Source of the DNA: Flexivirga meconopsidis
GTDB lineage: Bacteria > Actinomycetota > Actinomycetes > Actinomycetales > Dermatophilaceae
Length of the DNA stretch: 64,000 nucleotides
NCBI RefSeq assembly: GCF_026162425.1
Contig: NZ_JAOBQJ010000005.1
Span: 186,001-250,000, forward strand
Direction of reading: 5' to 3'
Of this stretch, positions 18,013-18,169 are shown in pieces. The translations under genes and the position numbers were made by a program. The notes below the pieces were generated by a model that was not told where the DNA came from, searched no databases, and saw only the letters and a program-made list of their open reading frames with translations. Each line of letters opens with the position of its first letter. The first letter of the stretch is position 1.

Positions 18013-18062
18013 GGTCTCGCCTTTGCGGTGGGTGCTGGGCTTCGGCCCGGGCAGCAGAACCT

Positions 18063-18100
18063 CCGCGGCGAGGAAGGCCGAAAGTCAGGCCTCGCCGCGG
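18063..18100 (-). promoter_or_regulatory. leuA attenuator hairpin
   Basis: CCGCGGCGAGG (18063-18073) and CCTCGCCGCGG (18090-18100) form a perfect 11-bp GC-rich stem with a 16-nt loop. The 5' arm, in transcript orientation, covers the last codons of the leader peptide and the loop covers its stop. A second small hairpin (GGGC-TTCG-GCCC, 18037-18048) lies nearer leuA. No T-run follows, so the effect may be on translation or on factor-dependent termination. Confidence 0.7.
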
Positions 18101-18132
18101 CAGCGAAGGAGAAGCACGTATGCCGCACGCAC
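18085..18132 (-). CDS. Leucine leader peptide for leuA
   Basis: 15 codons, reading VRAAYVLLLRCRGEA (first codon GTG). Three consecutive Leu codons (CTT CTC CTT, 18114-18106) avoid the CTG that dominates this genome, so ribosome speed there should depend on leucyl-tRNA supply. The GTG sits 7 nt after a -10 box and would be the first base of the mRNA. The stop lies in the loop of the hairpin. Leucine leaders before leuA are known in actinobacteria; this reading follows that precedent. Confidence 0.75.
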   Translation of the reverse strand: MRAAYVLLLRCRGEA

Positions 18133-18139
18133 GCTCCGC

Positions 18140-18169
18140 AGCCTAGGCCACCGGTTTGGCTGGTGTCCA
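18140..18169 (-). promoter_or_regulatory. leuA leader promoter
   Basis: On the minus strand TGGACA (18169-18164) and TAGGCT (18145-18140) are 18 nt apart. The expected start of transcription falls on the GTG of the leader peptide. Confidence 0.6.

Follow-up and report, generated by a model that had tools for sequence, protein, structure and literature searches.

The window analysed here, a 64,000-nt stretch of the Flexivirga meconopsidis genome, carries leuA on the minus strand, and 197 bases separate it from the end of a same-strand ORF upstream (19174-18209). Further upstream, tandem repeats were seen at 19190-19450 between two divergent genes, as recurring VHNPQPFRLTHAPSPQT-like translations. 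The following features were assigned to leuA and its leader:

16219..18012, minus strand: leuA, 2-isopropylmalate synthase, 597 aa (Pfam HMGL-like, IPMS_D2 and LeuA_dimer, each over its cut-off)
18016..18024, minus strand: leuA Shine-Dalgarno (SD) region, AAAGGCGAG, read from the sequence, 3 nt ahead of the ATG at 18012
18040..18048, minus strand: downstream strand of the predicted pseudoknot, GGGCCGAAG (own-versus-swapped permutation test)
18063..18073, minus strand: 3' arm of stem P2, CCTCGCCGCGG, whose CTCGCC (18072-18067) can instead pair with GGCGAG of the SD region
18075..18083, minus strand: loop strand of the predicted pseudoknot, TTTCGGCCT (own-versus-swapped permutation test)
18085..18132, minus strand: leader ORF, VRAAYVLLLRCRGEA*, predicted to be leaderless, with equivalent peptides at 99 loci
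18090..18100, minus strand: 5' arm of P2, CCGCGGCGAGG, within the leader ORF, whose last five codons extend into it
18102..18107, minus strand: predicted anti-SD strand P1, TTCGCT (end of Leu3, Arg, start of Cys), pairing with GGCGAG 18021-18016
18106..18114, minus strand: Leu codons CTT-CTC-CTT, from the sequence and the codon counts of relatives
18140..18145, minus strand: -10 hexamer TAGGCT, 7 nt ahead of the leader start codon
18164..18169, minus strand: -35-like hexamer TGGACA, from the sequence, with a TTGAC/TGGAC-like -35 in 33 of 68 relatives

The leader frame comprises 15 codons (18132-18085; GTG CGT GCG GCA TAC GTG CTT CTC CTT CGC TGC CGC GGC GAG GCC TGA), and both this GTG frame with its CTT-CTC-CTT run and the -35/-10 pair that the first-pass annotation had read ahead of it were borne out letter for letter (18169-18085). 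TGGACA and TAGGCT are spaced by 18 nt and TAGGCT lies 7 nt from GTG 18132, a placement that predicts a transcript start at or beside the GTG. Of 99 leuA leaders of relatives, 70 have a strict TANNNT hexamer 6-7 nt ahead of their start codon, and the remaining 29 mostly have a CATACT/CATGCT-like hexamer at a similar distance. As this distance leaves hardly any untranslated leader, initiation on a bare 5' end is the natural reading, and the promoter spacing fits the proposed leaderless start, which is a prediction for this transcript, both here and in most relatives.

Conservation was assessed in 30 leuA loci from related whole genomes and 80 named loci, the nearest of which belong to Leekyejoonella, Dermacoccus, Pedococcus, Phycicoccus, Nostocoides and Knoellia (Dermatophilaceae/Intrasporangiaceae) and the farther ones to Janibacter, Cellulomonas, Microbacteriaceae and Catellatospora. 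On its own the leader is modest, since the fold of the single sequence did not differ significantly from shuffles (z -1.15) and a generic sigma-70 scan did not call its promoter. Conservation, however, places it far above chance: 98 of 108 loci keep the pattern of Leu codons and stem ahead of leuA, compared to 0 and 1 matches in two coding stretches and 2 in the antisense control, although the loci are related and p values overstate their independence. This was the check set beforehand on which the proposal of a Leu leader peptide ahead of leuA could have failed, and the proposal is further supported by the equivalents at 99 loci. The leader peptides share a C-terminal [CR]R[GD][EG]A with three to four Leu ahead of it, and the stop codon falls within the P2 loop in 66 of 68 loci.

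P2 is a perfect 11-bp stem of CCGCGGCGAGG with CCTCGCCGCGG (18100-18090 with 18073-18063), the leader stop codon lies in its loop, and no run of four or more T follows it at the F. meconopsidis leader, all in agreement with the earlier description of the frame end as the 5' arm of a perfect 11-bp stem that lacks a T run. Across 64 aligned sequences, 99.7% of cells in P2 were paired; variation is seen at six pairs, three of which change on both sides. For the pseudoknot, swapping the partners among 68 loci gave a poorer fit between loop and downstream strand than the native pairs in each of 10000 permutations, and compensatory forms include TCAGCCG/CGGCTGA, CAGGCC/GGCCTG, CTAAGCC/GGCTTAG and GACGGCCG/CGGCCGTC. 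Since the linker varies in length, a MAFFT-based count put the pairing of this helix lower, at 78%, and in an alternative fold the same GGCC strand extends P2 locally. Rfam covariance models gave no match at gathering score in the window, and a permissive local search returned chance-level matches only. The classical attenuator arrangement of a stem and then a T run was found in none of the 68 loci, and the P2 hairpin is unlikely to be a terminator. Sequence comparison establishes the leader, its leaderless geometry, P2, the pseudoknot and the absence of a T run.

Both TTCGCT (18107-18102) and CTCGCC of the P2 3' arm (18072-18067) are complementary to GGCGAG 18021-18016, and these bases of the leuA SD region can be taken by only one of the two strands at a time. 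In tests of own versus swapped partners across relatives, which ignore their tree, the Leu strand matched its SD region with p = 0.0007-0.002 (about 4 sd above shuffled SD regions) and the 3' arm with p = 0.0008 (about 8 sd above), and we hold with moderate confidence that the SD region may pair alternatively with either strand. The choice of Leu codons also bears on this pairing. The first-pass annotation had set CTT-CTC-CTT against CTG as the usual Leu codon, and CTG is indeed the commonest in leuA of F. meconopsidis (22 CTG, 15 CTC, 2 TTG, 1 CTT). The Leu run ends in CTT in 81 of 99 leaders, whereas leuA coding sequences use CTT for 4% of their Leu residues. Rarity alone was rejected as an explanation: within leuA, TTA and CTA are used even less often than CTT, yet TTA does not occur in the leaders and CTA occurs once. 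Since the leaders favour CTT over these rarer codons, pairing with the SD region fits the codon choice better than rarity does, and probably explains it at least partly.

We then considered how a ribosome on the leader might affect the SD region by folding the leader and leuA start with the bases of a ribosome blocked, assuming a footprint of 14 nt upstream and 13 nt downstream of the first base of the A site; the pseudoknot enters these Vienna folds only as blocked bases. Over 62 loci, the mean SD accessibility was 0.36 in the free leader and 0.35 with the stop codon in the A site, but rose to 0.49 when the A site held the first Leu codon, or to 0.54 if the pseudoknot strands were set aside as well. 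Accessibility was higher in the Leu-stalled than in the stop state in 45 of 62 loci without the pseudoknot (p = 9e-6) and in 52 of 62 with the pseudoknot imposed (p = 2e-8). Moving the ribosome codon by codon along the leader of the window gave values of 0.43-0.48 before the first Leu codon, 0.55 at it and 0.30-0.31 at each codon after it. The mean of 55 loci was likewise highest at the first Leu codon, although the best position was scattered among individual loci (11 of 55 had it at the first Leu codon). In the folds of the window, TTCGCT and GGCGAG formed 6 bp in the free state (MFE), CTCGCC took the SD in the stop state, and GGCGAG was open in the Leu-stalled state. These results depend on the assumed footprint, as a longer one left the Leu stall and the stop undistinguished and, in the window, reversed the sign of the difference.

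Taken together, P2, the pseudoknot and the SD complementarity point to control of leuA translation rather than terminator attenuation, and we consider that a leaderless Leu leader of the LEU-element type probably controls leuA translation (probability about 0.6). From the folding models, we infer the following order of events and ribosome positions. The transcript would begin at GTG 18132 or right beside it, with a ribosome loading onto its bare 5' end. While the leader is free of ribosomes, the Leu3-Arg-Cys strand (18107-18102) would pair with the leuA SD (18021-18016) and keep leuA off. With plentiful leucine, the ribosome would reach the stop codon just beyond the P2 5' arm and cover that arm; the freed 3' arm could then bind GGCGAG through its CTCGCC, and leuA would stay off. 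When charged tRNA-Leu is scarce, the ribosome would halt once its A site holds the first Leu codon, covering the Leu strand and leaving both P2 arms free, so that P2 and the pseudoknot could form, both anti-SD strands would be occupied and leuA would be translated.

A second copy of the scaffold was found in the same genome, at G000:C3:716295-716370 on the minus strand (locus L142), where the scaffold model R1 matched with E 4e-5. Its leader, MTRWIILIPSRGEL, is Ile-rich and predicted to be leaderless, and it is followed by a 20-residue ORF, MTEEQQESRRALQESMDLRD, by leuB and ilvE and, farther on, by a cimA-like gene (names read from the sequence). Several near-identical copies of GCAGCGAAACTCACCGATTAGGTGAG were seen in the stretch between the 20-residue ORF and leuB at this locus. 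Twelve more leuB-side leaders were found by R1 or by stem and frame alone with no codon requirement. The pseudoknots of the leuB-side leaders covary (0 of 20000 permutations as good), while the pairing of the codon-run strand with the SD was not significant in this family (p = 0.56), though two loci show perfect 8-bp matches, and we make no claim of it for these leaders. Ile occurs in the four codons ahead of the scaffold in all 18 leuB-type leaders, two of which are identical, and in none of the 99 leuA leaders. A paralogous scaffold whose codon run has changed to Ile fits codon reading, and among the present results, this exchange of codons within a shared scaffold argues most strongly that the codons are read. 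In one family of the order, a Leu-coded scaffold also precedes leuC (L115, L116, L117, L146, L147). Two other matches were set aside: a second R1 match in genome G029 (E 0.0099) falls within an open coding frame and was discounted as a chance match, and a match in G280 (L152) is not clearly in front of leuA.

The 20-residue ORF belongs to a family of microproteins with the consensus MxEExxxARQALQESMDLRD, which had no Pfam match. Of 198 class-level genomes, 40 gave a match to it at E 0.1, about 24 of them with E 1e-3 or lower. Some strong matches are flanked by a serA-like gene upstream and leuB downstream, and leaders of the leuB-side type, such as MRFVLILRCRDGA, MRHIFVLRCRGGAS and MLWTVRILRCRDEAR, were seen there as well. 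Between a serA-like or other gene and leuB (L157-L177, L187-L206), a microprotein of about 20-35 residues with the core RxALQESMDLRD was seen, often with a strong hairpin before leuB; in more distant genomes, the core reads ALQEAMDRRDNGGETGH. At another locus (L153, genome G235), a Val/Ile leader, MRKQLVVIACRGGAS, precedes a different small protein, MNTYPIEWGPAHLRDDAVTPAVEPAERPDDN, so that the microprotein differs between lineages. A search of the literature that excluded most subscription journals returned no published account of the Ile-coded leuB leader, its microprotein or the leuC scaffold. As a broader and still tentative proposal, to which we give slightly less than even odds, one leaderless, terminator-less translational attenuator scaffold may serve as an exchangeable actinobacterial cassette, carrying Leu codons ahead of leuA and, in one family, of leuC, and Ile, Val or Leu codons ahead of a conserved 20-35-residue microprotein next to leuB. 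The exact position of the starved ribosome would free the SD by displacing the codon-run strand and tying up the 3' arm, and the unit beside leuB would represent a hitherto undescribed microprotein gene that responds to amino acids.

Other explanations of the leuA leader have to be weighed against translational control. Transcription could be attenuated instead, with P2, or Rho acting on untranslated leuA mRNA, stopping it when leucine is abundant. There are precedents in ilvB of M. tuberculosis, which is controlled by a leader peptide with a terminator (PMC13236596), and in C. glutamicum and C. diphtheriae, whose leuA leader peptides were called putative attenuators (PMC4046766, PMC5784534). 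The lack of a T run at any of the 68 loci and the conservation of P2 and the pseudoknot along with the SD complementarity argue against this, and the sole terminator-like call of a generic scan (18132-18114) lies inside the leader's own first codons. Rho-dependent ending needs no T run and could arise secondarily from sequestration of the SD; we regard attenuation of transcription as an unlikely primary mechanism, while under translational control, Rho could reinforce the effect by ending leuA mRNA that is not translated.

Another alternative is that the leader RNA is the binding site of a regulatory protein and that translation of the leader is incidental, as proposed by Seliverstov et al. 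(2005). In that report (PMC1262725), codon reading was judged unlikely from S. coelicolor mutants of earlier work, in which mutations of the leuA leader had some effect that was inconsistent with classical attenuation, and an RNA-bound protein was favoured. The high conservation of the scaffold sequence would also suit a protein site. However, the codon run tracks the pathway on the same scaffold (Ile in 0 of 99 leuA leaders vs 18 of 18 leuB-type leaders), the open frame, the leaderless start and the stop codon in the loop are all kept, and the conserved bases are mostly paired or coding, which makes this explanation rather improbable. It is very improbable that a conserved stem contains the frame by chance and serves as a structural 5' stabiliser with no regulation of leuA. 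The final residues of the peptide are set by the stem sequence, as such a stabiliser would have it, but the Leu codons lie outside P2 and are kept nonetheless, with the strong preference for a final CTT described above.

Control of leuA translation by the leader, the reading we prefer, bears on leucine sensing at actinobacterial leuA, which has been unsettled since the S. coelicolor mutants fitted no classical attenuator, according to the summary in PMC1262725. The comparison offers a model at the level of bases, in which the position of the leader ribosome alone would decide access to the SD; it would account for the missing T run and for the CTC/CTT codons, and it names the bases to change. 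In the Ile-coded copy, nature has in effect exchanged the codons, which speaks for their being read rather than for a bound protein. The copy also draws attention to a small conserved gene next to leuB, of which the same literature search returned no description.

Several known systems resemble the leuA leader. The proteobacterial leu leader (leucine operon leader in Rfam) likewise encodes a Leu-rich peptide before leuA, whereas the leader described here has neither an Rfam match nor a T-run terminator. Leu-rich leader ORFs also precede leuA in Corynebacterium (PMC5784534, PMC4046766) and in M. abscessus, where the uORF is ribosome-protected (PMC4974804), but in each case in another sequence context. 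Mycobacterial leaderless polycysteine uORFs are described as amino-acid-responsive attenuators of operonic genes (Canestrari 2020, as cited in PMC13236596); in that summary, they share the leaderless start and the codon run for one amino acid, with Cys in place of Leu. In S. lividans TK24, LeuL1 (MRFGLLLLSCRGEGL) is a Leu-rich peptide of 15 residues, leaderless by RNA-seq and without a typical Rho-independent terminator (PMC8079986), and R1 matches loci of other genomes with exactly this peptide before leuA (L134, L137, L138, L141) with E 1e-7 to 5e-7, which places this leader type on the same RNA scaffold as the one in the window. The Flexivirga leader differs in its GTG start and its N-terminal residues, and its 5' end is predicted, whereas that of LeuL1 was measured. 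The LEU element described upstream of actinobacterial leuA consists of a Leu-run ORF, a pseudoknot, a base stem between Leu codons and SD, and an alternative hairpin (Seliverstov et al. 2005, PMC1262725). The leader in the window likewise lies directly upstream of leuA (18132-18012) and has the Leu-run ORF and the pseudoknot; the base stem between Leu codons and SD was also found, with moderate support (p = 0.0007-0.002; 6 bp in the window fold). F. meconopsidis is not in the 2005 set, and the pairings were compared with its text description rather than base by base; the pairing of the 3' arm with the SD proposed here is absent from that text. The mechanism had been regarded as unusual for its leaderless start and missing T run, a view that does not hold given this element and the leaderless S. 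lividans relative: the leuA leader is a member of the already described LEU element, and its arrangement is not new.
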